This document shows, piece by piece, positions 890 through 25,710 of a stretch of DNA of 37,162 nucleotides. Each line of letters starts with the position of its first letter. Positions within the stretch are counted from its first letter, which is position 1. The position numbers and the translations under genes are program-made. The notes below the pieces were generated by a model. That model searched no databases and had not been told where the DNA came from. It saw nothing but the letters and a program-made list of their open reading frames with translations. The stretch lies in the NCBI GenBank assembly GCA_018607725.1, contig JABBAY010000244.1:43157-80318 (forward strand), in the 5' to 3' direction. This stretch comes from K189A clade bacterium (GTDB taxonomy: Bacteria; Pseudomonadota; Gammaproteobacteria; Pseudomonadales; Azotimanducaceae).

Positions 890-1837
890 ATGAGCGATAA
901 CACTGTGGATGATCAAAATGATGATCCGACTAAAAAGCTAGAAGATACCGATTTTTCAGTGACGGAAATTGCCGATGGCGACGACCAAGTTGCCGCAGGA
1001 GGTACAGATGATGACGAAGGCTTCGAAGAGATTATCATCACCGGGCAGGAGGTGGTGGAGGAGCTTCAACGCCTAATTCCTGCAGCGCTAGAATCTGCTG
1101 AGGCTGCGAACAAGGCATCTAAGCTAGGCCTTGATGCCTTGACCAGAATCGCGACCAGTGGCGAATTAGTGCAGCGGACGTCGAAGCGGCTGGTGGAGAC
1201 GTTTGAAAAGCAAGCCGTGATTGTTAAGTCGATCTATATCGGTGCCTTTAGCCTGCTGTTTGTCGGAATTATTATTTTTGGTGTCATGAGCGTGCAAATC
1301 AGCTCGCGGTTGTCTGAACTGGATGCAGTGATCTTTGCTGCGAGTAAACGAATAGCGAATTTAAATAGCGGTTTGGAATCCTTTGAAAGTATTCGGTTTG
1401 AAGTGCGCAATGTTGCAGAGCAGCAACAAACCCAAACAGCGCAAGTCAGGTTGTTGGCTGAGCAGCTCTATAATACCGAACAGCTGGTCGTGAAGATGGG
1501 GATAGACTTGCCGAAAAGCGCGGCGACGCATCTCGATGACAGTCTCGTCGGCTTGCAGAGTGATTCAAAATCAACAACCCAGGGTCTTAGTGAGCAGCAG
1601 GCAGCGATGACTGCTCTGAGCGCTGATGTCGTTAAGATTGAGCGGCGAATGGCCAGCGTTCAAGAAGCGCTAAATCGGTCTGCGCAGTTGAGCCAGGATG
1701 TTGAAGCATTGCTAACGTTGGAGCGAGCTCGTTATCTCGAGACAATCAATGCGCAAATCCAAATGCAAAAGGATGCAGCGGCAGGCATATTGCCGCCCGA
1801 TGAGCCTGGCACTATTCGGTACCAAGCGCCGCGTTAA
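890..1837 (+). CDS. single-pass membrane coiled-coil protein, unknown function
   Basis: Not recognised. The frame is open from 854, but the ATG at 890 follows the previous stop and has an AGGGA-like ribosome site just upstream. The 315-residue product has three parts. Residues 1-60 are very acidic. Residues 60-113 form a helical stretch (EVVEELQRLIPAALESAEAA). One clear membrane segment lies at about 115-137 (IYIGAFSLLFVGIIIFGVM), followed by about 175 residues of Gln/Glu/Leu-rich predicted coiled coil. With the acidic part inside, the coiled coil would be periplasmic. It is the third gene of a compact operon with the SPOR-like protein and converges on the flhA operon, sharing the TTAA of its stop codon with the opposite gene. 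A cell-envelope scaffold is one guess. Confidence 0.7.
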   Translation: MSDNTVDDQNDDPTKKLEDTDFSVTEIADGDDQVAAGGTDDDEGFEEIIITGQEVVEELQRLIPAALESAEAANKASKLGLDALTRIATSGELVQRTSKRLVETFEKQAVIVKSIYIGAFSLLFVGIIIFGVMSVQISSRLSELDAVIFAASKRIANLNSGLESFESIRFEVRNVAEQQQTQTAQVRLLAEQLYNTEQLVVKMGIDLPKSAATHLDDSLVGLQSDSKSTTQGLSEQQAAMTALSADVVKIERRMASVQEALNRSAQLSQDVEALLTLERARYLETINAQIQMQKDAAAGILPPDEPGTIRYQAPR

Positions 1838-2463
1838 CTGATTGGCTCGTTTGGTGGTTCAAGTTGAGGGGGTGACGGCGGTAGCGTGGTTGTGGCGGCA
1901 TTCAATAGGGACTGAGGAAGGTCGGGCTCCATGGTAATGCCGCTGCGCAGATATAGCACGTCGATCGTCTCAGTCAATCCTGAGAGAAGGCGAGCCAAGT
2001 CGATGTCGTTCGCCCTCGCTGATTCATAACCGACGCTATATAGGCTCGACACATGTTGTTGAGGGAGCCACGCATTAAGAGAGCCTCGGAGCGTGGCAAT
2101 CGACATGGGGTTCTCGATTTTACGTTTTGAAGCGCCTTTTTGCCCGTCGCTCACACCCGCGGTGAATAGGGTTGTAATGTGCTTTTTGAGGAGGATTGCG
2201 TAGCGATCACGAATACTATTGAGATCCGCTTCGCTCACAGAGCTATCGCCTGTGCCGCTGAGTGCGTCCCATAGTGCTTTGCCTTCCAGTCCCAAAAACG
2301 ATGTGTCGGTGCTGCCACCCTTTTCTTGTGTGTTTGTTGCAGTGGCACTAAGTCGAGTGCTGATAAACGATTCGAGCAAATCAATTCTACCGATTAAATA
2401 AATAATCGTTATTACTGTTACGAGCAGTAAGATGATCCCCAAAGCGGTGATCAGCAGAGACAT
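1834..2463 (-). CDS. N-terminally anchored membrane protein at end of flhA-fliA operon
   Basis: Not recognised. The 209-residue product starts with a strong membrane segment at about residues 4-28 (rich in L, I, V), then has a soluble helical domain and a Pro-rich tail (PPSPPQLEPPNEP). Its ATG overlaps the stop of the upstream gene as TAATG, which indicates translational coupling. It is the last gene of the flhA-flhF-flhG-fliA transcription unit, a place where pseudomonads carry chemotaxis genes (cheY, cheZ). It resembles neither of these. Co-transcription with fliA suggests a flagellum- or pole-linked role; this is inference only. Confidence 0.7.
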   Translation of the reverse strand: MSLLITALGIILLLVTVITIIYLIGRIDLLESFISTRLSATATNTQEKGGSTDTSFLGLEGKALWDALSGTGDSSVSEADLNSIRDRYAILLKKHITTLFTAGVSDGQKGASKRKIENPMSIATLRGSLNAWLPQQHVSSLYSVGYESARANDIDLARLLSGLTETIDVLYLRSGITMEPDLPQSLLNAATTTLPPSPPQLEPPNEPIS

Positions 2464-3020
2464 TATTGCGCCTCGCTTTCGTCAATGTCGTCAATGTCGT
2501 CAATGTCGTCGGAATCGTCATTACTCTCTGCAGTATCACCGCCCTGTTCTTGGGTTTGTTCTCGTAAAAAGCGCACGACCTCGAAGTCTTCGCTGAGATC
2601 CAATTCGAGCCAAATTCGATCAGCGATAGCTTGTGTTTGGTTGATGGCCTCGTCAATACTTATTTTTACTGTCTGATAGAGTCCGCCCGTTGAAAAAATT
2701 TCCATGGCAAAATGATCAGGGATATAAGAGATGATCTCCCCGGCTTGGCTCTTGATTGTTTGATAGGCTGCCGGAGTGGGTAGCGTAGGCGGTTCTTCGC
2801 CATTTGCAATGGCTTGATTACGTTGGGACTCGTAGGCCTCATATTTTTTTGCGCCCTCAATGAATACCAGGTCGATATGTGCTCGACAGCGCACCATGAC
2901 CTTCATACGCAAGGCCCGAGCATTTTTTGCTTGGCCTGGGGAGTTCACGGCGGTTTCATATAACTTTTTTGATTCAGCGAAGGCTTTTTTAAGGGCAGCG
3001 CCTTTAGAGAATGAGAACAT
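2463..3020 (-). CDS. hypothetical cytoplasmic protein downstream of fliA
   Basis: Not recognised. The product is 185 residues, without signal peptide or membrane segment. The first 150 residues are helical and mixed-charge (start MFSFSKGAALKKAFAESKKL). The last 35 residues are an acidic tail ending in repeated DDI triplets. An AAGGA ribosome site lies just before the ATG at 3020, and the gene starts only 31 nt after the fliA stop. The downstream gene is coupled to it through a TAATG overlap. The pairing of a soluble acidic-tailed protein with a membrane-anchored one suggests the two interact, but there is no family evidence. Confidence 0.72.
   Translation of the reverse strand: MFSFSKGAALKKAFAESKKLYETAVNSPGQAKNARALRMKVMVRCRAHIDLVFIEGAKKYEAYESQRNQAIANGEEPPTLPTPAAYQTIKSQAGEIISYIPDHFAMEIFSTGGLYQTVKISIDEAINQTQAIADRIWLELDLSEDFEVVRFLREQTQEQGGDTAESNDDSDDIDDIDDIDESEAQ
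2481..2507. repeat. 9-bp tandem repeat coding an Asp/Ile tail
   Basis: Three exact copies of GTCAATGTC (+ strand; 2481-2489, 2490-2498, 2499-2507) encode the repeated DDI triplets near the C-terminus of the 185-residue protein on the minus strand. A further imperfect copy follows. Copy number could vary between strains. Confidence 0.85.
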
Positions 3021-3051: not shown

Positions 3052-3777
3052 TTACGCTGTGATCTCTGCGATGGTAATCCTTAATTTGGCCACCGTCGCG
3101 GAGAGAATTTGACTCACTCTGGATTCATTAACGCCTAGTATGACGCCAATTTCTTTTAAGTTCATTTCTTCTTTGTGATAGAGCGAAATAACGAGCTGCT
3201 CCCTCTCCGATAGTTGGCTGATCGCCAGGGCAACGCGATCGTTGATTTCCCGATTAGAGACCTGTGTTTCAGGATTGGCCGAACTCATGTCCTGTGCTGT
3301 TAAGTCTGTATTGTCTTCGTTAGTTAGCTCAATAGAACTGGTCTGGAATCGATTCGCATGCTCTCTTTCCTTGTGGAAAGCTTCTGTGCTCAGGCCAAGT
3401 GCTTCGGCGATCTCGGTTTGGGTCGGCGAGCGGCCTAGGCGATGGCTTAATTCCATAGCGGTTTTATTATGCTGTTGGAGATGACTCACTGCAGACCTTG
3501 GTATGCTTGATAGTTTGCGAATTTCATCCAAGATGGCGCCTCGTACTCGATTCTTGGCGAACACTTCAAACTCGACGCCAACACCAGGGTTGAAAGCCTT
3601 GCTGGCTTCGATCAAACCCAGAGTGCCGATTTGAATCATGTCTTCGAGTTGGATGTAATCTGGTACTCGGCCTTTTAGATAGATAGCGATCCGTTTGACG
3701 AGGCCAATATAGTTCATCAAATCAATTTTATGATTTTTATCATTTTCAATCTGACTATAGCTGCTGACATCTACCAT
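3052..3777 (-). CDS. fliA: flagellar sigma factor sigma-28 (FliA)
   Basis: The product is a 241-residue sigma-70-family factor of the FliA size class. It directs RNA polymerase to late flagellar and chemotaxis promoters (TAAA-N15-GCCGATAA). Region 2 is visible early (YIQLEDMIQIGTLGLIEA and FAKNRVRGAILDEIRK), region 3 follows (GRSPTQTEIAEALGLS), and region 4 has the helix-turn-helix near the C-terminus (LNLKEIGVILGVNESRVSQI with small changes). The flhG stop is 43 nt upstream, in the flhA-flhF-flhG-fliA order known from Pseudomonas and Vibrio. Its anti-sigma factor FlgM is encoded at 12366-12683 behind a sigma-28-like promoter. Confidence 0.96.
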   Translation of the reverse strand: MVDVSSYSQIENDKNHKIDLMNYIGLVKRIAIYLKGRVPDYIQLEDMIQIGTLGLIEASKAFNPGVGVEFEVFAKNRVRGAILDEIRKLSSIPRSAVSHLQQHNKTAMELSHRLGRSPTQTEIAEALGLSTEAFHKEREHANRFQTSSIELTNEDNTDLTAQDMSSANPETQVSNREINDRVALAISQLSEREQLVISLYHKEEMNLKEIGVILGVNESRVSQILSATVAKLRITIAEITA

Positions 3778-3820: not shown

Positions 3821-4606
3821 TTATGTTTGTTCAGTTAAGTTAACTTTTGGTTTGAGCAGGGCATCAACATTTTTGGCAAGCTGTCTAAAATTACTCGCCG
3901 CCGCTGATGACGGGTAGAGCTGTACAACCGGTTGCGCTTTCTTCCATGCCATGGGAATGGCCTCGTCTTTCACAATGTGTCCTATCATGCCAATGCTGAA
4001 TTCAAGAAATCTATTGGTGACGTTATTAAAGCTGCTGTGTAAACGGAACGCATGAGCTTCATCGATGACCTCGTTGGTTAACAGATAAAGATTGTCACTT
4101 GCCGCATTTTTGTTCAGCACTTTGACAGTCGCATAAGCATCAGCATAAGAAGATGGGTCGTCTTTGCAGATAATAAAGCGATAATCGCAAGCTTGTAAAA
4201 AGGTGATGACCGAGTCCGATATACCGGCGGCGATATCGATGATTAAATAGTCGAGTTTTGCTGCTAGTGACTCAAAGCCTTGAAGCATAATGCCAGCTTG
4301 CAGGGAGGTTAGTGACGCCAGTTCTTGTAAACCGCTGGCACCGGGAACCAGTTGGACACCACTTGAGGTGGTAATGATAATCTCTTCAAGGGTTTTAACA
4401 CCGGCGAGAACATGGCTGAAGTTGTATTTTACTTGGCAGCCGAAAGCGAGCTGTGCATTGGCTAGACCCAAGTCGCCATCAAGGAGCATGACGGTTTTGC
4501 CACTCTCTGCTAGCGCAGTCGCTAAATTCACAGCGACTGTTGTCTTGCCGACACCACCTTTGCCGCTGGCAATACCGATGACTCTAACCCTGGAGCCTAA
4601 TTGCAT
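3821..4606 (-). CDS. flhG: flagellar number regulator, MinD-like ATPase FlhG (FleN)
   Basis: The product is a 261-residue ParA/MinD-type ATPase. The deviant Walker A box is GKGGVGKTT (about residues 15-23), followed by the switch I motif DGDLGLAN, the switch II region IDIAAGIS, and a FlhG-like VKDEAIPMAWKKAQPVV segment. In known systems FlhG limits flagellar number by stimulating the FlhF GTPase and by restraining the sigma-54 master activator. Here the Walker A box follows only about 13 residues (MQLGSRVR), and an in-frame TAG lies shortly before the ATG. The N-terminal DQAxxLR activation helix typical of FlhG is therefore missing. Its position between flhF and fliA is canonical. Confidence 0.93.
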   Translation of the reverse strand: MQLGSRVRVIGIASGKGGVGKTTVAVNLATALAESGKTVMLLDGDLGLANAQLAFGCQVKYNFSHVLAGVKTLEEIIITTSSGVQLVPGASGLQELASLTSLQAGIMLQGFESLAAKLDYLIIDIAAGISDSVITFLQACDYRFIICKDDPSSYADAYATVKVLNKNAASDNLYLLTNEVIDEAHAFRLHSSFNNVTNRFLEFSIGMIGHIVKDEAIPMAWKKAQPVVQLYPSSAAASNFRQLAKNVDALLKPKVNLTEQT

Positions 4607-4667
4607 CTTTGTCTATTCCTGAATTCTTCGCAGTTTCATTACTAATACAGCGTAATTTAACAGACTT

Positions 4668-5855
4668 TCAACCGAAATTTAATTGTTGATGTGTGTATTC
4701 TTCCAACACGGGACTATCACTGGGCCTGAGTCCGTCGATACCTTCACTGGGGGCGAGGATGCTATCGATATGCCGCTGGATTTTTTTGTCAATGAGGTGC
4801 GCCAAAAAGTCGCCTGATAGGGCTCTCGGGGGGCTTGTCACGTTAGTGCTAAAAGAGCCTAAAGACACGGGTATATTGCCATTGATGAGAATGCTGATAA
4901 TGGCCCATGGGTAGTCTATACCGTCTAATCGAGAGACCATGCACGAGGTCCAATGCAGGTCGGGGTGGCCCAGCAAGTTGAGCGCCGAGGTCTCGTTCGT
5001 GTCTGCAGCTAGCATTAGGTGGGACTTGAGTCCGGGAATTATTTTTGTGATACATCTGACTTCTCTCTGGATATCTGAGCCAGCGGTATCGATCAATAGA
5101 TGATGAGTCTCACCTATTTCAGCATAAAGGGCTTGGAGTTGCTTAAATGAGGTTATGCGATAGGTGTCAGCACCTGCGCGAGCCCCGGCGATCTGAGTTG
5201 CCTGCCAGGCCCCGATGCGATCATCATTGAAACTGATTAAGACGATCTTTCGTGACTCATCAGCCATTGCCAATTGCGCCGCAATACGCGCGATCATGGT
5301 GCTCTTACCTGATCCTGGTTGGCCAGCGATGAGGTGGGCTTGGGCCGGGTCAGCGACGAGGTCATAGGCCTTGATCTGTGTTTTCATCCATTGAGTTAGA
5401 GCATTCAGACCATCTTGCAGTTTTTTTGTCGGCGCTAATGGGTCATGCATCTGTTGGCTCAACCGAGCAGACATGCCTGTATTCAGGAACAAGTGTTGCA
5501 ACTCGATAATATGCGTCGGTGTGGCATGAGCTTGGTGCGGCAAGCGTGTCAGACTCTGCATTTCCAGTCGAGAGGTCTGAAATTCAGCCTTGATGAGTTC
5601 CACCAGGGTCAACGCCCGTTGCTGTTCGGTGGCCAGCGCTGAGGCCGGTGCTGAGGTCACCGGGGTAGGTGGCGAGACGACAGGCGCAGAGGCCACGGCG
5701 GTAGCCGCTTTTGTGTTGTTGTCCACGGCTGCAATGAGCTCGTTGCGGCCATTGTAGCGACGATTAGAGACCACCATGGAGTCTTCACCGAAATGACTTT
5801 GAATCTGTGCCATCGCCATACGGGTGTCGGGCGCAAAAACCTGTTCTAGTCTCAT
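4668..5855 (-). CDS. flhF: divergent SRP-type GTPase FlhF
   Basis: The product is 395 residues. The N-terminal basic region (MRLEQVFAPDTRMAMAQI) fits FlhF; then comes a Pro/Ala-rich linker, an N domain from about 75, and an SRP-type G domain. The G1 loop is GQPGSGKST (178-186), the G2-like region has DDRIGAWQ, and DTAG marks G3. The G4 position reads SRLD instead of TKLD, and the usual GQxVPxD closing motif is not visible. In known systems FlhF marks the pole where the flagellum is built. The start overlaps the flhA stop (ATGA) and has AAAGGAG upstream. The family call is safe from context and architecture; the G-motif changes are unusual and may alter GTP binding or hydrolysis. Confidence 0.93.
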   Translation of the reverse strand: MRLEQVFAPDTRMAMAQIQSHFGEDSMVVSNRRYNGRNELIAAVDNNTKAATAVASAPVVSPPTPVTSAPASALATEQQRALTLVELIKAEFQTSRLEMQSLTRLPHQAHATPTHIIELQHLFLNTGMSARLSQQMHDPLAPTKKLQDGLNALTQWMKTQIKAYDLVADPAQAHLIAGQPGSGKSTMIARIAAQLAMADESRKIVLISFNDDRIGAWQATQIAGARAGADTYRITSFKQLQALYAEIGETHHLLIDTAGSDIQREVRCITKIIPGLKSHLMLAADTNETSALNLLGHPDLHWTSCMVSRLDGIDYPWAIISILINGNIPVSLGSFSTNVTSPPRALSGDFLAHLIDKKIQRHIDSILAPSEGIDGLRPSDSPVLEEYTHQQLNFG

Positions 5856-7972
5856 GCTGTTTCTCCTTTAGCGTCTCGTATACTGATGTTGGAAATAATT
5901 TTGATGTCTTGGTCGTCGGGTATTTCATTGTAGGACAGTACAGTTAAGCGTGGCACACGCTGACGAGCCGTGCGTGACAACCAAGGTCTGAGTCCGGGTG
6001 AAACAACCAATACGGTAGGTAGCCCTTGCTCTTCTACCTGTTGGCAGCTAGTGGCGATAGCCGCAAAAAGATCCTCTGCTAGCTTGGGTTCAATGACGAG
6101 GCTGCCATTGCGTTGACTTTGCGTGAGTATCGTCGTCAGCATCTGCTCTAGCGACGGTTCTAGTGTCATAACGGGCAGGTTCTCATCCACATTGACCAGG
6201 CCCTGCATGATCATTCGACCCAGTCTCGGGCGTACCAGAGCAGTCAATTCATCGGGGTCCTGAGTCTTGCCGCTTTCGACGGTCAGCACGTCGATAATAC
6301 TGCGCATATCTCTGACGCTGACGTCTTCGGCAAGAATGTTTTGCAGGATTTTTGTCACTGCGGCCAGGGGTAGTTTGTTGGGTACCAGATCTTCCACCAG
6401 TTTCGGCGATCGCTCTGCGACTTTGTCGAGTAATTGTTGGGTTTCGTCATGGCTGAGAAGGCTGGCAGAATTTTCTCGTAAAATGGCGTTCATATGGGTT
6501 GCTATCGCTGTCGATGCATCAACAACCGTATAACCCAGGGTGCGAGCGTAGTCTCGCTGCGACGCGTCTATCCAGACGGCTTCCAGACCAAATGCTGGTT
6601 CTTTCGTGGGCGTGCCTGTGAGTTCGCCATGGACGACGCCCGGGTTGATGGCCAATTCCTGACCAACTCGTATTTCGCCTTGGCCGCGAACGACGCCGCT
6701 GAGGACAATATTGTAGACGTCAGGTGCTAGCTCGAGGTTGTCTCTGATACGAATCGGTTGCACTAGGAAACCAAACTCCGTTGATAGCTTCTTTCGTACG
6801 CCTTTGATTTTTGCCAATAGAGTTCCGCCAGAATCGGCGCTGACCAGTGGAATCAGTCCATAGCCGATGTCAAGTGCAACAATATCGACTTGCTCTACAT
6901 CTTCCCAATCCAGTTCCTTGTTTGCGGGGTCTTCCTGCTCCTCTTCTTGAACAGCGCTACTATCTTCGGCAAGCTTCTTCGTTCCTCGTTGGCCTAGGTA
7001 GTAATAGCCCAGTGCGCCGGACAGTAGGCTCAATGTGATGAATACTAGGTGGGGCATGCCTGGAACCAGGCCCAAGAGCATGAGTATGACTGCGGCGATG
7101 ATCCAGGCTTCCGGCTGTGCGATCTGGCTTTTGGCCTGTACGGTCATCGACTCGGAAGTGGTGACCCGGGTGACGATAATCGCCGTCGACAATGACAGTA
7201 ATAGTGAGGGAATCTGCGCTACAAGACCATCACCGATCGTCAATAGCACATATATGCGACCTGCATCCGCGAAGCTTAGGTCATGCTGGCCGATGCCAAT
7301 GAGCAGGCCGCCGAGTATGTTGATCATCAGGATCATGAGGCCGGCGACGGCGTCGCCGCGAACGAATTTAGATGCGCCGTCCATTGAACCGAAGAAGTCT
7401 GATTCCTGAGAGATTTCTTCACGACGGCGTTTAGCTGTCTCCTGGTCTATCACGCCGGCGTTAAGATCGGCATCAATAGACATCTGTTTGCCGGGCATGG
7501 CGTCGAGGGTAAAGCGAGCGATAACCTCTGAGACACGCCCGGCACCTTTGGTTACCACGATGAAATTGATGATCATTAAAATTGCGAAGATAATGAAGCC
7601 AACGAGATAATTGCCCGCGATCACAAACTCGCCAAACGCTTGAATGACCTTGCCGGCGGCGTCAGGTCCCTCGTGGCCGTTGACTAGCACGACACGCGTC
7701 GAGGCGACGTTTAGGCCGAGACGAAGCATGGTTGCCAAGAGTAATATTGACGGGAATGAAGAAAATTCCAACGGGCGGGACACATTGATCGCAATCATAA
7801 TGATTACGAGTCCAATGACGATATTAAAAGTGAACAGCACGTCCAGCAAAAACGCGGGTAACGGCAAAATCAACATTGAGATGATTAAGAGAATTAAGAC
7901 AGGTATGCCTAGCCCAGATAGTTCGAAACCGGACAGGGTCTGTCGTATTGTTGACACGTTTGCTGTAGCCAT
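5852..7972 (-). CDS. flhA: flagellar type III export gate protein FlhA
   Basis: The product is 706 residues, the normal size for FlhA, the inner-membrane gate of the flagellar export apparatus. The N-terminal half has about eight membrane segments with the conserved NVSRPLEFSSFPSILLLATM and MPGKQMSIDADLNAG signatures. The C-terminal half is the cytoplasmic domain that docks chaperone-substrate complexes. It is the first gene of the operon and is preceded by a sigma-54-like promoter at 8056-8072. flhB, its usual partner, is not in the window; only an orphan FlhB-like C-domain is present (11514-11801). Confidence 0.97.
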   Translation of the reverse strand: MATANVSTIRQTLSGFELSGLGIPVLILLIISMLILPLPAFLLDVLFTFNIVIGLVIIMIAINVSRPLEFSSFPSILLLATMLRLGLNVASTRVVLVNGHEGPDAAGKVIQAFGEFVIAGNYLVGFIIFAILMIINFIVVTKGAGRVSEVIARFTLDAMPGKQMSIDADLNAGVIDQETAKRRREEISQESDFFGSMDGASKFVRGDAVAGLMILMINILGGLLIGIGQHDLSFADAGRIYVLLTIGDGLVAQIPSLLLSLSTAIIVTRVTTSESMTVQAKSQIAQPEAWIIAAVILMLLGLVPGMPHLVFITLSLLSGALGYYYLGQRGTKKLAEDSSAVQEEEQEDPANKELDWEDVEQVDIVALDIGYGLIPLVSADSGGTLLAKIKGVRKKLSTEFGFLVQPIRIRDNLELAPDVYNIVLSGVVRGQGEIRVGQELAINPGVVHGELTGTPTKEPAFGLEAVWIDASQRDYARTLGYTVVDASTAIATHMNAILRENSASLLSHDETQQLLDKVAERSPKLVEDLVPNKLPLAAVTKILQNILAEDVSVRDMRSIIDVLTVESGKTQDPDELTALVRPRLGRMIMQGLVNVDENLPVMTLEPSLEQMLTTILTQSQRNGSLVIEPKLAEDLFAAIATSCQQVEEQGLPTVLVVSPGLRPWLSRTARQRVPRLTVLSYNEIPDDQDIKIISNISIRDAKGETA

Positions 7973-8203: not shown

Positions 8204-8677
8204 ATGTGTTTGGGTAAAATCAATTTAACGATGGTGGCCCTGATTCTGAGTGCGGGTTTTGGCTTTTCCGGCTGCGCCCCCATTGAGATGCGTAGTGAAG
8301 GGTCAATGATAAAGATTGCTCAGCAAGAGCTAGTAATCAGTGCGACGGGCTATGCGGTGATCAGCGTTCAGACGAGTGATAACCCCGCGCAGCAGCGTTT
8401 GATGGCGATCAGAGCCTCGAAGATGGATGCCTATCGGGGTTTGGTTGAGCAGGTTTACGGCCAATATGTAGATGGTTCAACGACGATCTCAGACTTGGTC
8501 ATGAGTGACGATGTTTATCGCGCCAAGGTTCAGGGCGTAATATATGGTGCCCAATTGGTGAGCGTCAGCCCGGTGGGTGAAGATACCTATGAAGTGACCC
8601 TATCGCTGCGACGCTCGGTGGTCAATGACCTGCGACTATTATACCTCAAGCATATGAAGCAACTCGCCCGTGCGTAA
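8204..8677 (+). CDS. flgP: outer-membrane lipoprotein FlgP (LPP20-like)
   Basis: The product is 157 residues with a lipoprotein signal peptide (lipobox FSGC, Cys at about residue 24) and an LPP20-type body (RASKMDAYRGLVEQVYGQYV). In Vibrio, FlgP is an outer-membrane lipoprotein tied to the basal-body outer rings and needed for motility. The start at 8204 has AAGGGAG at 8190-8196, 7 nt upstream. The gene overlaps flgT by 8 nt, so translation is probably coupled. The neighbours (flgT, flgA, flgM, flgN) match the Vibrio cluster; no FlgO is present here. Confidence 0.82.
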   Translation: MCLGKINLTMVALILSAGFGFSGCAPIEMRSEGSMIKIAQQELVISATGYAVISVQTSDNPAQQRLMAIRASKMDAYRGLVEQVYGQYVDGSTTISDLVMSDDVYRAKVQGVIYGAQLVSVSPVGEDTYEVTLSLRRSVVNDLRLLYLKHMKQLARA

Positions 8678-9854
8678 ATTATGGACTCACCGTTGTGTAG
8701 TTAGGCTGCTGGCGAGTGTCTGTCTGTTGATGTCGAGTTCTTGGTCGCTGGTCGCTATAGCGCAAACAATGGCCTTTGTGCCACCCCAAGCCCAGGGCGC
8801 TAACGATATGGCGGAGCAGCGGTTGGCCGCGGCACGTAATGCGCTGCTAGATCGCGCGTTGAATGGTGAGCTGGAGATTGTGACCTCCGCTTTTGTTGAT
8901 GAGTCAGGTGAATTGCATGAAGCCACGTATATGGCGTCGAATGGCACCGTGCGGGGGGTTCGAGTCGCTGATTATTTGGCTGGAGATCGTCAGTCACCGG
9001 CGCTGGCTGCTGAGATAATAGGCCAGGTTGACGTTCAAACGTGTCGGCAAAGTCGGTATCGCCGTCAGGCGGTGCTCTACACCCGGATCGGTGCCGATTT
9101 GAAATCTTCAAGTCAGTCCATTCATGAGATCGGAAGAGTCATTCGCGAATCAGTGATCGAGGAGTTTGGAGCGGACCAGGGCTGGCTGGTGACTAGCGAG
9201 CAAGCTTATGCCAGCGAATATGATCGTTCGCTTCGTGGGACGGGTGATCAAGCTGCGGCACTGCGAATCGAGATTCGTGTTGAGGAATCACAAGCAGGTG
9301 TATTGACAGAGGGCTACTATAATGTCCGTAAAAGCCTGAAGAGCGGTTTGCGTTATATTCCGCTATTGGGTTACCGCCCCGACGCGACAGCAAGATCGAA
9401 CAAGGTTCGTTATCAATTGCGGCTGGTGGATATCGCCTCGGGCAAGGTGGTGTTTGACCGTGACGAAATGATCGGCTTTACTGATCAGCTCCAAGGGGCG
9501 GATGCTGATTTACCGTTGGAAATTTTGGCTTTGATCGACGCGGCGACTAGCAGGCAGGTCAACGGGTTGCGCACCGCCGCGAAATGCCTGCCAAATTCTT
9601 TTTTGGTCACAAGATCGGCGCGAACCTCGCCGACGTTGCTCCTGAAATCTGGATCGCTTGCTGGAATGACGGTGGGCGATGAATTTCTCTTGAGCAGTTC
9701 TCGTGATCTTCATAATGTGGTGCTCAATGGGGATGGTATTAACCATCTTGGACTGGGAAGGATTACTCGAGTCAATGACTTCAGTTCCGTGGTTGAGGTC
9801 GTTGCGGGGGAGAAGAGGCCTGTATCAGACTACGTTGCTGCCTTACCATTCTGA
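8670..9854 (+). CDS. flgT: flagellar H-ring protein FlgT
   Basis: The product is 394 residues, close to Vibrio FlgT (about 377). A Sec-type signal peptide occupies the first ~32 residues. The mature protein fits the three-domain pattern: an N domain beginning AEQRLAAARNALLDRALNG, a middle domain around QSIHEIGRVIRESVIEEF, and a C domain around DEFLLSSSRD. FlgT forms the H ring around the LP ring and supports stator assembly in sodium-driven motors. The GTG start at 8670 lies inside the end of flgP. The last two codons plus stop (CCA TTC TGA) are repeated twice more downstream in frame. The call rests on context plus architecture. Confidence 0.78.
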   Translation: MRKLWTHRCVVRLLASVCLLMSSSWSLVAIAQTMAFVPPQAQGANDMAEQRLAAARNALLDRALNGELEIVTSAFVDESGELHEATYMASNGTVRGVRVADYLAGDRQSPALAAEIIGQVDVQTCRQSRYRRQAVLYTRIGADLKSSSQSIHEIGRVIRESVIEEFGADQGWLVTSEQAYASEYDRSLRGTGDQAAALRIEIRVEESQAGVLTEGYYNVRKSLKSGLRYIPLLGYRPDATARSNKVRYQLRLVDIASGKVVFDRDEMIGFTDQLQGADADLPLEILALIDAATSRQVNGLRTAAKCLPNSFLVTRSARTSPTLLLKSGSLAGMTVGDEFLLSSSRDLHNVVLNGDGINHLGLGRITRVNDFSSVVEVVAGEKRPVSDYVAALPF

Positions 9855-15871: not shown

Positions 15872-18751
15872 ATGTCATTTTATACATCTTTAACCGGTTT
15901 GAACGCAGCAACTACGGAACTTGCTGTAACCTCTAACAATATCGCCAACTCGGGAACGTCGGGGTTTAAACGATCTGAAGCCGACTTCGGTGACATTTTC
16001 GCGACCTCACCTTTGCAGAAAGCCTCTAGTGTCATCGGTGCTGGTGTCTCGCTTAAGTCAGTTTCTCAGGAGTTTAGCCAAGGTAACATCGAGTTCTCAG
16101 CTAACTCTCTTGATCTGGCGATTACCGGCGATGGTTTCTTTGCTCTGGAGTCGCCGGATGGCACGAAAATATTCACTCGAAACGGTGGGTTCATGCTCAA
16201 CGAGCAAAACCAGATGGTCAACTCAGCAGGCCAAGCGCTTATGGCTCTACCTGTAGACTCGACGAACAAAGCTGACTTCAGTGAACCCCTTAGCGCCCTC
16301 GCGATACCTCGGCAAACGGTGGCAGAGTTTTCAGCGACTACAGAGGTTGAATTGGGCCTTAACCTGCCTTCTGACAGCGTGCCTATCCTCGAAGCGTTTA
16401 ATGCTTCGAAAGAAGAGACTTACCATAAAACAACGTCATTGACTGTTTACGGCGCATCAGGATCGAGCCATCTGGCAACAATTTACTATGTGAAAACTGC
16501 GGCCGCGACTGCAGATTCTCCGTTTAACAAGTGGCAAACCTATGTGTCGATCGACGGTACTGAGGTGGATCCACAGCTTATTCAAGCTTCCGACAAAGGT
16601 GGCGATTCATATTTCGTCAATAAATTTGGTGAAATAAAAACGCGATCAGAGCTTTTGGAATTGCAGCGTACCAGTTCGGATAGTGCACAATTTTTGATTA
16701 CTACTGGTACGGAATATAAAAAATATTCTTTTGATAACCTATCTTCGCCCGTTGAGTCTCAGCCCGCGACGGTCACCATGCCGATTTCTGATACAAGTAC
16801 TTATAAAGACAACTTGAATTTGACAAACAATCAAGATGGCGTGGATATCTCGTCATTTTCATACGCTCAGCTACAGAATATGTTTCAAATTTCTATCGAT
16901 CAATCTGAATTCGTCGATGTGGGCATCGAGCATTTGATAGGGCAAGACTTAAAATTATCAGGCTCTGAGATCGCCTTCGAACTCACTAACGTTCTGAATT
17001 CTCGCTTTGGCGATGAAAAAACCTATGATTTCTCTACTGCAACTGACGGTCTGCTTACCTTGAGTAGAGGCGAAACCGAGTATGTAAACGGTGCTTGGAG
17101 TGCTCTCGAGTCAATTGATATCGATATCAGAGCTCTCATGACAACGGCCGGATTTGATCCTGACACTGATCAAATTAACCCAGATCAATTGACTTATCTC
17201 GTTAATATGCACCTCGAAGCGTCCGCTAATTTTTCAGATGTTACGGTGACTCGAGACAACACCAACAAAGGATTTCAATTTCTTCAATCTGACTCAACGA
17301 AACTATCTAACCTGTATTTGAGTAATAGTGATGGTGTTTTCGATAGTGTTTTCAAGGTAGGGTCTGCAGTTGCGTCGACTGATCCTGACGTGCCGCCAAC
17401 ATTTGGTACGCAAATTGTACCCTTGTCGAATGATTCCGATATCTTGCTTCTCGAAAATGTCGTTGCAAACGGCGATAACGAGCGAGTGATCAGAGACCAG
17501 CGCTTTGGTATCAAAGTTACGTATTCCGATGGAAACTTCCTGGTTAGTTCTGGCTCTACGGGTGATGATTCCAGTATCGAAGTGAGACTGAACACGGATG
17601 GTAATGGACTCTTAACTAGTGCATCGACGTTAGCCGAAGAATTGTTGGGCATCTCTCAAACGGGATTTGTTGTAAATACTCAATCTAATCAAATCAATAA
17701 TCTTCCTACAGTGCGTGGACAAGCGTCCCAGCCTGCGATTGTGAACGGTGCGACGATGGGTGTTGACCCAAGAAAATCGTTTACCGTAAACGATGGTAAT
17801 AAGGATATGACTGTCATCATTGACGGTATATCGGCGCAATTCTCCCTAGAGGCTGGCCAGTACTCTATTGGCACCTTTACAGAACATATGCAGAGTAAAA
17901 TCAATCAGATGGGTGATAGTCTTGGCCGTACTGTATCCGGTGTAAAGGTGGACTTTAACGACGTTACCGAATCACTGATTATTACCGGCGCGACAACCTC
18001 GGATGAATCCTTTATACAAATTGCTGGTTCATCTGACTGGGGCCTTGAAGATATTGACGCTGCTTTTGGTGCGACGTCGACTTACATCAGCTTAGAAAAC
18101 GATTTGCAGGGAAACGCGGCCGTTTATGTTTCTCAAACTAAAGATGGTGAGTGGGTAGAGACTACCGATAAGGGTGAGTTTGACGAAGAAGATATTCCTT
18201 ATTGGTCGCCAATATTCTTGGACAAGGGTGAGTTAACCTTTGATACCAGTGGATCGATCGTATCTCCTATACGTGGTGCGACATTGAGCAGTGAGGAAAT
18301 TACCGGTACAGCCATATCTATTGGCTATAATCGTAGTACTCAGTTTAATGCGCCTTTCGCTGTACTCAGCCAAAGCCAGAATGGAGCTGCTGAGGGCAAT
18401 CTGGTCGGTGTAAATATCGGCGATGATGGTTTGGTCGTGGCAAGTTACTCTAACGGTTCGCAGAAGTCGCTAGGAAAAATAATCATGGCTAACTTCGCGA
18501 CTCCAAAAGGCTTGCGCCAAATTGGCGATGCGAGTTACTTCGAAACCTCTGAATCGGGTGCTGCCGACTATGGCGAACCTGGCGCCGCTGGCTTCGGTAC
18601 ATTGCGAGCTGGTGCGCGAGAACGCTCTAATGTCGACCTTACCGCTGAACTAGTGGACTTGATTACCGCGCAACGTAACTTCCAAGCGAATGCAAAGGCT
18701 ATCGAGACAAGCTCTTCGTTAACCCAGACAATCATTAATATTCGCGGCTAA
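15872..18751 (+). CDS. flgE: hook protein FlgE, oversized
   Basis: The product is 959 residues, about twice the usual 400-450. The N-terminal axial part is typical (SLTGLNAATTELAVTSNNIAN, then SLDLAITGDGFFAL), as is the C-terminus (VDLTAELVDLITAQRNFQAN). The extra sequence sits between the two halves of the outer D2 region: it begins near residue 235 (after YVSIDGTEVDP) and ends near 780 (before GELTFDTSGS). It is rich in Ser, Thr, Asp and Asn, and around residue 640-680 it contains a stretch like the flagellin hook IN motif. The insert would lie on the hook surface. No frameshift is seen. Confidence 0.95.
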   Translation: MSFYTSLTGLNAATTELAVTSNNIANSGTSGFKRSEADFGDIFATSPLQKASSVIGAGVSLKSVSQEFSQGNIEFSANSLDLAITGDGFFALESPDGTKIFTRNGGFMLNEQNQMVNSAGQALMALPVDSTNKADFSEPLSALAIPRQTVAEFSATTEVELGLNLPSDSVPILEAFNASKEETYHKTTSLTVYGASGSSHLATIYYVKTAAATADSPFNKWQTYVSIDGTEVDPQLIQASDKGGDSYFVNKFGEIKTRSELLELQRTSSDSAQFLITTGTEYKKYSFDNLSSPVESQPATVTMPISDTSTYKDNLNLTNNQDGVDISSFSYAQLQNMFQISIDQSEFVDVGIEHLIGQDLKLSGSEIAFELTNVLNSRFGDEKTYDFSTATDGLLTLSRGETEYVNGAWSALESIDIDIRALMTTAGFDPDTDQINPDQLTYLVNMHLEASANFSDVTVTRDNTNKGFQFLQSDSTKLSNLYLSNSDGVFDSVFKVGSAVASTDPDVPPTFGTQIVPLSNDSDILLLENVVANGDNERVIRDQRFGIKVTYSDGNFLVSSGSTGDDSSIEVRLNTDGNGLLTSASTLAEELLGISQTGFVVNTQSNQINNLPTVRGQASQPAIVNGATMGVDPRKSFTVNDGNKDMTVIIDGISAQFSLEAGQYSIGTFTEHMQSKINQMGDSLGRTVSGVKVDFNDVTESLIITGATTSDESFIQIAGSSDWGLEDIDAAFGATSTYISLENDLQGNAAVYVSQTKDGEWVETTDKGEFDEEDIPYWSPIFLDKGELTFDTSGSIVSPIRGATLSSEEITGTAISIGYNRSTQFNAPFAVLSQSQNGAAEGNLVGVNIGDDGLVVASYSNGSQKSLGKIIMANFATPKGLRQIGDASYFETSESGAADYGEPGAAGFGTLRAGARERSNVDLTAELVDLITAQRNFQANAKAIETSSSLTQTIINIRG

Positions 18752-22725: not shown

Positions 22726-25710
22726 ATGCCCGATTTATTGTCTATAGGCACATCAGCGACGCAGCTTTACCGTCAAGCCTTATCGACGGTGAGTAACAAT
22801 ATCGCCAACATGACTACCGAGGGATATTCTCGGCAGGAAATTGTGAGTGTTGAAAATTCCCCGAGTCAGCAGGGAGTATACTATCTGGGAACGGGTGCTA
22901 CGGTCGAAACCGTAACTAGGGCCTTTGATGCGTTTGCTGAGGATAATGTGCGCAATGGCGCCAGCGAGTTAGGTTTTCAGCAGCCAACTATTCAGTATGC
23001 GAACCGCATTGTCGACGTCATGGGTTCAGAAACTGGTGGGCTGTCTGGCGCTATGGACAAATTTTTCGCAAGTGCTAATGAGCTTACAACCAATCCAAGT
23101 TCCAGTGTTCTGCGAACAAGTTTTTTAGCGACGGCGGACTTTCTGGCTTCTAGAATGACGTCTATTTCTGAACAGTTAGAAACTATTGGGTTGGAAGCGG
23201 CCGCGGATACAGATGCTGGTGTCAATAAAATAAATGGCATTTCAGAACAGTTGGCTCTAATTAATGGGAAACTCCAGCAAAAACTGACAGAGGCGAGACA
23301 GCCGCCGGGACTACTAGATACACGCGACCAACTTCTCCGGGAGTTGTCAAGCCTGGTCAAAGTTGAAGTTAAGATAGCGACTTCTGGTCAGGCGGACGTT
23401 CTTCTTGCTGGCGGTGGAAATGCGTCGAGCCTAGTTAAGGGTCAAAATGCGAGTGTTCTGCGAGTCGTTCACGGCGAAAATGTCGTCGACCGTTCTATCA
23501 TTACATTAGAGATGAAGGGCCCGCAGTCCACAGGGCAGCAATACCAATTGCCAGGACTACAGGGTGGTACGGTTGGTGGATTACTAGATTTCAAAAATAG
23601 CGTGTTAAAGAACGCAGTTGAAGATTTAGATAATTTTGCTAAAACATTTGTGACCGAGGTGAATGATCTGCATCACGCTGGGGTCGATCTAAACGGCAAT
23701 TTAGGTGGAGACATTTTTCGAATCGATCCTGTCGTCGGTGTCGAAGCGCTGACAAGCGGTTCGCTAGGTAATATGACTGTTAGTGTCGTAACTGGACAAA
23801 CAGCTTCTAACGAAAAAATTATGGTCACATGGGACAAAGACAATAACGGATTTATCGTAAGTAAAAATGCTGAAAATAGCTTTTTTGCGGTCGACGGATC
23901 GGGTGAAGTGCAGTTCCATGGCTTGAGAATTCAAAATTCGAATGACCTGCAGGACGGTGCGGTGCTGGCGTTAACTGTGACGGACCGACCCGCCAAGTTC
24001 ATGACGATGGTGATTGAAAATGAGAACGAAGTAGCGGCTGCGAGCCGTTTAACGGCGACCTCATCGATTAATAATAGCTCAGCTGCTCTTGCGCAGGTTG
24101 AATATTCTAATGCAAATCCCAGATCTAGCGTCGTTCCAGCTGGGATGCTTGACTTGTCTACGGCCTCAGTTCGTAATTTTGATGGGGTAGTGAATTTTAG
24201 CAGCAGTCAACCGTGGGCGCAGATTTCAGCCGGTACGACGAGTTTTAGCGTTGAATTGCACCCAAGCGAGGCGAGCTCTGTGCAGCTACAGCTCGTGACT
24301 GCAAATGGTGTGCAGTTATTAGGCGGAACCATCGCAGAAGCGCAAGCCCTGATGAGTAACGAGTTTTTCGATTCGTCAGCTATTTACAGCGATGCAGCGA
24401 TGCAAAACGCACCCACTTCAAGTTATCGCGATTTGGATATCGTTTATGGTTATCGAGCCGAAGCGGTAATCGGTGCGGCAGATACTATAGTGACCGTTAA
24501 GTCTGGCTCAGTTCCGTTGCAAACTAACGTTGGTATCGGCGCCGAAACGATTGTTGGAGACGGCGATCTGCGTCTGAATGGTGTTGAGCTTTCTGAGTTA
24601 ACGTTACAGGCTGGCGATGAACTGTCGGCACTGGATGTTGCATCGTGGTTAAATCTGCAGAGTGATGCAACTGGCGTTTCAGCAGAAGCCACTAATCTGA
24701 TTAAAGTGGATCCGACTAACCTGGCTTTAGGCTCGAGTTTGGTATTGAACGGTGTGCGCGTAGTGGGGGCTGAATCAGCGCTTAATGCGACCGCATTGGT
24801 CGAGCTCATTAACGATGTGAGTACGGATACCCATATTGATGCTTATATCGATGCAGAAGGTCAGATCAATTTGCTTAATCTAGCTGGGCACCAAGGCGAA
24901 GCCTTTGCTTTATCCAGTACGGATGTCGATGGTGAGAATACACTTGGACTATCGTCGAAAAAATACTCTGGTCAATTGGTCCTGACTGCGACGGATAGTA
25001 TCCAGTTTGATTTGGTAACGTCTGGAAGTCATATGGGCAAGCCCGCGGACCTGGCTGCGCTAGGGTTGTCGACGGGTCTTTATTTCTCAGGGACTCTGCC
25101 AGAAGATATGGCGATTTTGGTGTCAGGGGCTGGATCGGGTAGTACGCCAATTATTGCAAAGTCGAGTGAGGTTATAGATCCTAGTAGCATGCCACGGGTG
25201 ATGGAAGGAGCGTTTTCAGTATCTTTTCTTGATGATGGTACTTACATGATCACTGATGTTGGATCAGGTTCCATTGTTGCTAATCGAAATTATGACCCAA
25301 TAGTCGGGGTTCAGTACGGCGAGATTACAGTTCGCTTTGATTCGGAGCCTGTTGCTGGTGATGAATTTCTTATAGAGCCGACAGAAGTAAGTTCTGGTAG
25401 TAACGGGACGATTGTGGCATTGGCGAGTCTTCAACAAGAAAAGGTTTTCACAGGTGGTAATACGTTTTCTGGCGGCTATATAAAGATTCTTAATGATGTA
25501 GGCTCTAAAAGTTTTTCCGCCACGATAGCCAAAGATGCTTTAGAAGTCGTCTATCAGCAAGCCGTGGAAAAGCGAGATTCAAAAGTTGGGGTCAGCTTAG
25601 ATCAAGAGGCGGCATCCTTAATTCGCTTCCAACAGGCATTTCAAGCGGCCGCACAAGTTATTCAAACATCCTCAAAGTTGTTTGATACCATTCTCAGCGC
25701 AAGCAATTAG
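22726..25710 (+). CDS. flgK: hook-filament junction protein FlgK (HAP1), oversized
   Basis: The product is 994 residues, against about 550 in Salmonella. The N-terminus (LLSIGTSATQLYRQALSTVS, then NNIANMTTEGYSRQ) and C-terminus (SLDQEAASLIRFQQAFQAAA, then QVIQTSSKLFDTIL) are typical. The middle is expanded and carries at least two stretches like the flagellin hook IN motif (near LRLNGVELSELTLQAGD and LVLNGVRVVGAESAL). FlgK joins the hook to the filament. No good ribosome site precedes the ATG, but the family N-terminus fixes it. Confidence 0.95.
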   Translation: MPDLLSIGTSATQLYRQALSTVSNNIANMTTEGYSRQEIVSVENSPSQQGVYYLGTGATVETVTRAFDAFAEDNVRNGASELGFQQPTIQYANRIVDVMGSETGGLSGAMDKFFASANELTTNPSSSVLRTSFLATADFLASRMTSISEQLETIGLEAAADTDAGVNKINGISEQLALINGKLQQKLTEARQPPGLLDTRDQLLRELSSLVKVEVKIATSGQADVLLAGGGNASSLVKGQNASVLRVVHGENVVDRSIITLEMKGPQSTGQQYQLPGLQGGTVGGLLDFKNSVLKNAVEDLDNFAKTFVTEVNDLHHAGVDLNGNLGGDIFRIDPVVGVEALTSGSLGNMTVSVVTGQTASNEKIMVTWDKDNNGFIVSKNAENSFFAVDGSGEVQFHGLRIQNSNDLQDGAVLALTVTDRPAKFMTMVIENENEVAAASRLTATSSINNSSAALAQVEYSNANPRSSVVPAGMLDLSTASVRNFDGVVNFSSSQPWAQISAGTTSFSVELHPSEASSVQLQLVTANGVQLLGGTIAEAQALMSNEFFDSSAIYSDAAMQNAPTSSYRDLDIVYGYRAEAVIGAADTIVTVKSGSVPLQTNVGIGAETIVGDGDLRLNGVELSELTLQAGDELSALDVASWLNLQSDATGVSAEATNLIKVDPTNLALGSSLVLNGVRVVGAESALNATALVELINDVSTDTHIDAYIDAEGQINLLNLAGHQGEAFALSSTDVDGENTLGLSSKKYSGQLVLTATDSIQFDLVTSGSHMGKPADLAALGLSTGLYFSGTLPEDMAILVSGAGSGSTPIIAKSSEVIDPSSMPRVMEGAFSVSFLDDGTYMITDVGSGSIVANRNYDPIVGVQYGEITVRFDSEPVAGDEFLIEPTEVSSGSNGTIVALASLQQEKVFTGGNTFSGGYIKILNDVGSKSFSATIAKDALEVVYQQAVEKRDSKVGVSLDQEAASLIRFQQAFQAAAQVIQTSSKLFDTILSASN

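Follow-up and report, generated by a model that had tools for sequence, protein, structure and literature searches.

The flagellar locus

The window (the whole stretch of DNA analysed here, 37,162 nucleotides from a K189A clade bacterium) contains the genes flhA, flhF, flhG and fliA in this order, all on the minus strand, followed by two uncharacterised genes, designated u185 and u209:

5852..7972, minus strand: flhA (TIGR01398, 846.7 bits, over the cut-off)
4668..5855, minus strand: flhF, 395 aa, with altered G-domain (TIGR03499, E 3.1e-30; between flhA and flhG)
3821..4606, minus strand: flhG, 261 aa, MinD-type ATPase core without DQAxxLR and without FFxER (best solved match FleN 5j1j)
3052..3777, minus strand: fliA (TIGR02479, 222 bits, over the cut-off)
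2463..3020, minus strand: u185, uncharacterised protein, marker of the window flagellar lineage, directly after fliA
1834..2463, minus strand: u209, uncharacterised, hydrophobic N-terminus, with a domain common to u185 (hhalign probability 93, E 2.4e-7)

As described, FlhF and FlhG form a conserved switch that determines the number and site of flagella. Family profile scans recognised the two window proteins as FlhF-like and MinD/FlhG-like. The window FlhF missed the curated threshold of TIGR03499 (106.1 bits, 68 below the cut-off of 174.15), which was reached by just 15 of 58 relatives; its gene occupies the position expected of flhF. Three SRP54-domain genes were found in the window genome, flhF being the only one in the flagellar locus; the remaining two were taken as Ffh and FtsY. 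The genome contains a single FlhA, and the flagellar cluster goes on along the same contig with MotA, two MotB, FliG, FliM and FliN. The window FlgE (15872-18751) and FlgK (22726-25710) are 959 and 994 aa long; both proteins are usually shorter. Two other very long genes beside the flagellar cluster have N-termini that look flagellin-like by eye, one of 1188 aa (L210:14073-17636) and one of about 1185 aa extending over two stretches (L210:18236 to L211:1793).

Altered and retained parts of FlhF

A sequence-only reading of this locus had described a G2 region NDDRIGA, SRLD at G4 and no GQxVPxD motif in FlhF. Alignment confirmed all three. The parts concerned are as follows:

5706..5855, minus strand: B-domain with FliG-interacting segment, residues 1-50, retained (phmmer, residues 3-44 against 9en1_A)
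5298..5324, minus strand: G1/P-loop GQPGSGKST, residues 178-186, retained
5199..5228, minus strand: G2 NDDRIGAWQA, residues 210-219, with Asp replaced by Asn210, Arg213 kept and Gln replaced by Ala219
5079..5090, minus strand: G3 DTAG, residues 256-259, retained
4920..4934, minus strand: G4 SRLDG, residues 308-312, in place of TKxDE
4824..4877, minus strand: G5/closing region, GQxVPxD replaced

The G2 aspartate aligned with N210 and the G2 glutamine with A219 against the solved FlhFs 8r9r and 2px0, SRLD lay opposite TKLD of 8r9r, and the counterpart of GQxVPxD was STNVTSPP. From the set made up of G2 Asp/Arg/Gln, TKxD and GQxVPxD, the window FlhF keeps only the arginine (R213) and the G4 aspartate (D311); GQPGSGKST and DTAG are kept as well. 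The stretches N210-W217 and S308-D311 were identical in the nearest relatives found, L034 and L035. In SRP GTPases, the G2 Asp and Gln act in a composite active site, and the G4 Asp is the main guanine-specificity residue. Judged by these motifs, the window FlhF is a protein in which part of the catalytic and base-recognition set is lost and the phosphate-binding part is kept, and it may still bind nucleotide.

The spacing of K184, R213 and D256 equals that of K222, R251 and D294 in P. aeruginosa (excerpts of PMC6855561) and of K305, R334 and D377 in V. alginolyticus (excerpts of PMC6092412, where R334 is equated with R251); the equivalences to window residues were drawn here from this spacing. 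By its phmmer match to the FlhF chain 9en1_A, the stretch of residues 3-44 is a putative FliG-interacting segment, and the N-terminal segment of FlhF binds FliG according to excerpts of PMC12826062 and PMC11236974. The predicted structure of the window FlhF had a pLDDT of 41 and was unusable.

FlhG without activation helix and C-terminal tail

The absence of the N-terminal DQAxxLR motif from FlhG, already claimed from the letters of the window, held: no such motif occurs in the three minus-strand frames of 4501-4800. A longer FlhG is likewise excluded by an in-frame stop, after which merely two codons (Thr-Lys) precede the ATG at 4606. The relevant features are:

4613..4615, minus strand: in-frame TAG excluding a longer FlhG N-terminus
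3824..3898, minus strand: FlhG C-terminal tail ASNFRQLAKNVDALLKPKVNLTEQT, without FFxER

Displacement of the helix to another place in the genome is not plausible: 11 DQAxxLR-coding sites were found in the window genome, against 6 for a reversed control pattern, and among the 8 of the 11 that were taken as loci, 6 were read in frame without revealing an FlhG-like N-terminus. Only one read site belongs to a gene of the flagellar locus: at 9246-9265, it falls within the frame 8670-9854 for a 394-aa protein whose N-terminus is hydrophobic, and it most likely arose by chance.

The best solved match of the window FlhG was P. aeruginosa FleN (5j1j, E 8.9e-52; species from the literature). In the phmmer alignments, residue 7 of the window protein fell on residue 31 of 4rz2 and residue 5 on residue 14 of 5j1j, so that the start of FleN is similarly short. 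Excerpts of PMC12713375 indicate that the lack of DQAxxLR in Pseudomonas FleN is already published.

At the C-terminus, FFxER is absent too, which the sequence-only reading had not mentioned. The window FlhG ends in ALLKPKVNLTEQT, while nearly all other FlhGs read close with a segment like LEFFVERL. By pattern, FFxER was present in 5 of the 35 FlhGs of the window lineage (defined below) vs 100 of 103 outside it, and one of the three outside misses nearly matches (L143, FFVET). FlhG has a C-terminal membrane-targeting sequence according to excerpts of PMC12826062, and we take FFxER as its putative counterpart. The Walker A lysine (KGGVGKT) and the two switch aspartates were invariant, both in the lineage (35/35) and in the others (103/103).

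The departure of both proteins from the textbook pair is real and conserved, being kept in the two nearest relatives and including FlhF residues relevant to hydrolysis. It is wider on the FlhG side than had been noticed, and milder than had been implied on the side of the window FlhF, where the retained P-loop lysine, G2 arginine and DTAG had been overlooked.

Activation helix and G-motifs across loci

FlhA was found in 77 of 200 genomes of the family, 141 of 194 of the order and 72 of 140 of the class. From these, 158 stretches downstream of flhA were hand-picked (67 of 83 family places, 56 from the order and 35 from the class), with order places sampled at one to three per family code, and two named relatives (UBA4475 and a Pseudomonadales MAG) were added, the only ones to come out of the search for such relatives. 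Among the 161 loci scanned, one was a duplicate (L075, identical to L034 and left out of the counts) and eight had no FlhF match. The other 152 FlhFs were scored for five motifs, by a definition fixed after the motif listing had been inspected and with scores that depend on the alignment in the most diverged proteins. The census of both genes leaves aside two truncated FlhFs (L067, L074) and ten more loci without FlhG on the stretch; L149, L181, L116 and L037 were excluded from the FlhG tree.

All 27 helix-bearing loci had all five FlhF G-motifs. The 113 helix-less loci were divided into 45 with five motifs, 20 with four and 48 with three or fewer. Where both genes were read in this set, FlhF erosion occurred solely in helix-less loci, though absence of the helix alone does not entail erosion. 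At the level of the order, the helix was present in only 4 of 107 loci with FlhF and FlhG read. The proposal that the two proteins changed together was not supported by this comparison: a helix-less FlhG is normal in the order, has been printed for Pseudomonas, and stands beside a complete FlhF in 45 of 113 cases. With helix absence so common beside intact FlhF, joint loss as it had been stated was rejected.

The FlhG tree calls for at least 11 changes of helix state and at least 6 of the eroded state (an FlhF with three or fewer motifs). A tree-based paired test found no association; it comprised just 1 and 4 supported pairs and had almost no power. In the window lineage, all 35 loci are without helix and without the G2 Asp, so that either order of the two losses would fit there. 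Since most of the order, many loci with an intact FlhF among them, has no helix, the loss of FlhG stimulation probably permitted FlhF erosion and did not accompany it.

The G2 Asp was present in 27/27 helix-bearing FlhFs and in 65/65 helix-less FlhFs scoring four or more, vs 0/35 in the window lineage; these comparison groups were themselves selected by motif score, but the contrast is not circular, as genes other than flhF served to define the lineage. Erosion also occurs beyond the window lineage, where it takes other forms. Outside the 35, three or fewer motifs were scored in 21 FlhFs, 13 of which retain the G2 Asp; among the 21 are family f13, genera g29, g10, g31, g16, g6 and part of g22, and contig-end fragments. 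FleN-type loci with G-motif erosion outside the lineage were seen in f13 (L117-L119), g29 (L050/L057), g22 (L078/L079/L090) and g10 (L084).

A separate flagellar lineage

The window locus is one of 35 loci that form one branch in trees of FlhG, of FliA and of a concatenation of an FlhA fragment, FlhG and FliA (SH-aLRT 99, 99 and 100, from quick searches; trees without inferred root). In the FlhA-fragment tree, the 35 group with six contig-end fragments; these have no FlhG and were excluded from the 35. The lineage loci come from family codes f1, f15, f41 and f44 of the same gammaproteobacterial order.

Other flagellar types are present as well in genera g1, g22, g23 and g25. One genome (G015, listed contamination 2%) contains two flhA-flhF-flhG loci, L043 and L044, of which one encodes an intact FlhF next to a different type of FlhG and the other a P-loop-less FlhF. 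These mixed types within genera and the two loci of G015 indicate that the clusters probably moved horizontally or were lost differentially. In the concatenated tree, at least four separate flagellar lineages were observed in family f1, and three in genus g22, a sign that whole clusters have been replaced repeatedly.

Motif scores of lineage FlhFs range from 3 down to 0, and the FlhFs of L043 and L039 have no P-loop whatever. By column, the P-loop lysine is present in 33/35, the G4 lysine is changed to arginine in 26/35 and the G4 aspartate is kept in 26/35; the closing loop varies.

The altered FlhF is under purifying selection. For pairs of the window, L034 and L035, omega was 0.13-0.14 for FlhF and about 0.07-0.09 for its G-domain. 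Among seven other lineage pairs, FlhF omega was 0.09-0.23 in six, among them the pair of P-loop-less FlhFs with 0.13, and the seventh was saturated. All these values are approximate: synonymous distances are high for several of the pairs, and L092 and L102 are very close to each other. In resemblance to 76 intact FlhFs, the lineage and intact means were 1.45 vs 2.48 for the B-domain and 0.26 vs 2.20 for the G-domain, and the FliG-binding end is thus the best retained.

u185, u209 and genome context

Of the 35 lineage loci, 28 have a u185 gene directly after fliA; none of the 125 others does (six of these are contig-end fragments). The stretch is cut within 390 bases of fliA in three of the seven lineage loci without it; the remaining four, all of one g22 subgroup, extend 1.2-2.3 kb past fliA without u185, which is therefore not universal in the lineage. 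Across genomes, u185 was detected in 26 of the 390 scanned from the order (families f1, f15, f41 and f44) and, among 369 class genomes, in the window's own only; it was not detected in G094, a lineage genome with a cut stretch. At E 0.01, neither Pfam nor NCBIfam gave a match to the window u185 or u209, the u185 profile had no PDB match, and 12 u185 members compared with Pfam reached a best E of 0.04, with no family common to them. The predicted u185 fold was all helical (pLDDT 61), and a Foldseek search with it gave 135 matches at E <=10 and none at <=0.001 (50 listed). As for u209, it occurs in 9 of 35 lineage loci. An initial HMM count of 17 was corrected, as 8 of the 17 were u185 genes matched via the common domain. 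A relationship of u209 with FipA (DUF2802) was considered and not supported (hhalign probability 0.2 with a weak, two-sequence FipA profile). That u185 or u209 might work together with FlhF or FlhG is guesswork based on gene position.

We also compared 22 hand-picked genomes, 15 of the lineage and 7 not. The FipA family was found in 0/15 vs 5/7, the FleQ N-domain (E <=0.001) in 3/15 (one strong, G278) vs 6/7, and CheW in 5/15 vs 7/7; each of the 5 lineage genomes concerned had three CheW matches, one in a Pil-Chp-like frame of 774-2086 aa. CheZ was found in 0/35 lineage genomes vs 9/36 others. We claim no causal link, because these traits track phylogeny and CheZ is missing in most of the sampled family whatever the FlhF state. 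The window genome (G000) has just three CheW-domain matches, all in a single cluster on contig C133, with a Pil-Chp-like frame of 2086 aa. Neither CheZ nor a FleQ N-domain was found in this genome (93% complete). With only the Pil-Chp-like CheW cluster and neither of these, the window flagellum may operate without flagellar chemotaxis genes.

A model for the altered pair

We are inclined to favour, by somewhat better than even judgement, a model in which the window pair belongs to a separate flagellar lineage, with FlhF as a FliG-binding adaptor whose GTP hydrolysis is impaired and which is not driven by FlhG; the adaptor part is our inference. The model builds on the anatomy observed here: an FlhG cut down to its ATPase core, without activation helix and FFxER, and an FlhF which keeps the B-domain and P-loop and is without the G2 Asp/Gln, the G4 TK and the GQxVPxD loop. 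Such an FlhF would serve as an adaptor for FliG; it may hold nucleotide, and would hydrolyse it poorly or not at all. FlhG would not switch FlhF; it would act solely through the ATPase cycle of FlhG itself, with the C-ring or a regulator as target. The earlier suggestion that the pair works independently of GTPase activity is, as far as motifs can tell, plausible.

Excerpts of published mutant studies bear on this model from both sides. In V. alginolyticus, R334A abolished GTPase activity and left flagella normal, and in V. cholerae, flagella were affected by lost binding and not by a lost catalytic residue, hydrolysis appearing dispensable (excerpts of PMC6092412). P. aeruginosa FlhF alleles without GTP binding or hydrolysis restored polar assembly, and FliG interacted with all FlhF alleles tested there (excerpts of PMC6855561). 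However, the same alleles affected motility and R251G cells were paralysed, so turnover can matter after placement; and the V. alginolyticus G4 mutant E440K lost its flagella, so that a loss of binding would be expected to do harm (same excerpts). Two of our own observations also count against the adaptor: R213, K184 and D256 stand at conserved spacings, which would allow some hydrolysis, and 13 of the 21 other eroded FlhFs keep the G2 Asp.

An unlikely though serious alternative is that FlhF is still a working GTPase, its motif changes being tolerated or rearranged and its activation not depending on the FlhG helix but on another factor, as is presumably the case in Pseudomonas. The P-loop, R213, DTAG and D311 are kept; the change of G4 Lys to Arg was also seen in 3 of the 65 helix-less FlhFs scoring four or more; and in Pseudomonas, according to excerpts, FleN without the motif (PMC12713375) coexists with reported FlhF GTPase activity (PMC6092412). 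Yet the G2 Asp occurs in 92/92 helix-bearing or near-intact FlhFs and in 0/35 of the lineage, two lineage members are wholly P-loop-less, and the G4 substitutions T436M, K437A, D439A and E440K impair the Vibrio FlhF (excerpts of PMC6092412), three of these four positions being different in the window. It is rather improbable that we are looking at ordinary divergence, i.e. a fast-evolving Pseudomonas FlhF-FleN pair with unchanged mechanism. The separation of the lineage in three trees (SH-aLRT 99, 99, 100) and the FFxER of 100/103 FlhGs outside it argue against this reading, for which the common order flhA-flhF-flhG-fliA, FleN as best solved match and the absence of the helix as the norm of the order can be put forward.

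The graded loss of motifs, down to P-loop-less proteins, might also be taken for decay of an FlhF which no longer functions. With purifying selection in the window genus and in other pairs, a retained B-domain, and a flagellar cluster of its own that includes genes for stator and C-ring, we give this hardly any credence. Equally improbable is a changed nucleotide specificity, for example away from GTP, brought about by the G4 and closing-loop changes: the P-loop lysine persists in 33/35 while the G4 lysine is arginine in 26/35 and the closing loop is variable, but the G4 Asp is kept in 26/35 and in the window itself.

Returning to the favoured FliG-binding adaptor, a more far-reaching version can be imagined, which we consider doubtful. 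In it, FlhF would be a scaffold for FliG that works independently of GTPase activity, FlhG would be a soluble ATPase that does not stimulate FlhF and does not bind the membrane, and u185 (with a membrane-anchored u209 where present) would have assumed the task of recruiting or counting that falls to FipA/HubP and the GTP cycle elsewhere. If this was true, the several FlhF erosions that arose separately within the order could be read as natural experiments on the share of the switch required for flagellation. Already the finding that both sides are without parts of the switch and are still kept by selection separates the adaptor role of FlhF (FliG binding) from the GTP cycle, and the lineage offers natural variants, from partial motif loss to no P-loop, for testing which role matters.

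Comparison with known systems

In the literature searched, we found no description of natural FlhFs without GTPase motifs. Among the known systems closest to the window pair is FlhF-FleN of Pseudomonas, which has the same gene order and a FleN without DQAxxLR (excerpts of PMC12713375), and which supplies the best solved match of the window FlhG. However, the sampled FleN-type loci mostly keep the FlhF G-motifs and FFxER, which the window pair does not, and one 6.2-Mb FleN-type genome (G291) contains a FleQ domain, the FipA family and CheZ, none of which was found in the window genome. With the helix-bearing FlhF-FlhG of the B. subtilis and S. putrefaciens type, the window pair has in common the B-domain, the domain order with an SRP-type NG domain and the MinD-like ATPase core; it differs by the absence of DQAxxLR and FFxER and by altered G2, G4 and G5. 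The FlhF point mutants (V. alginolyticus R334A; P. aeruginosa R251G, K222A and D294A) resemble it in that, according to the cited excerpts, placement is possible without normal turnover in some species, whereas the window has a natural, fixed state with changes at different residues (G2 Asp and Gln, G4 Thr-Lys). The standard FlhF-FlhG switch model may not apply to the window lineage, whose pair is a new variant of the known FlhF-FlhG pair, with testable natural extremes among its relatives.
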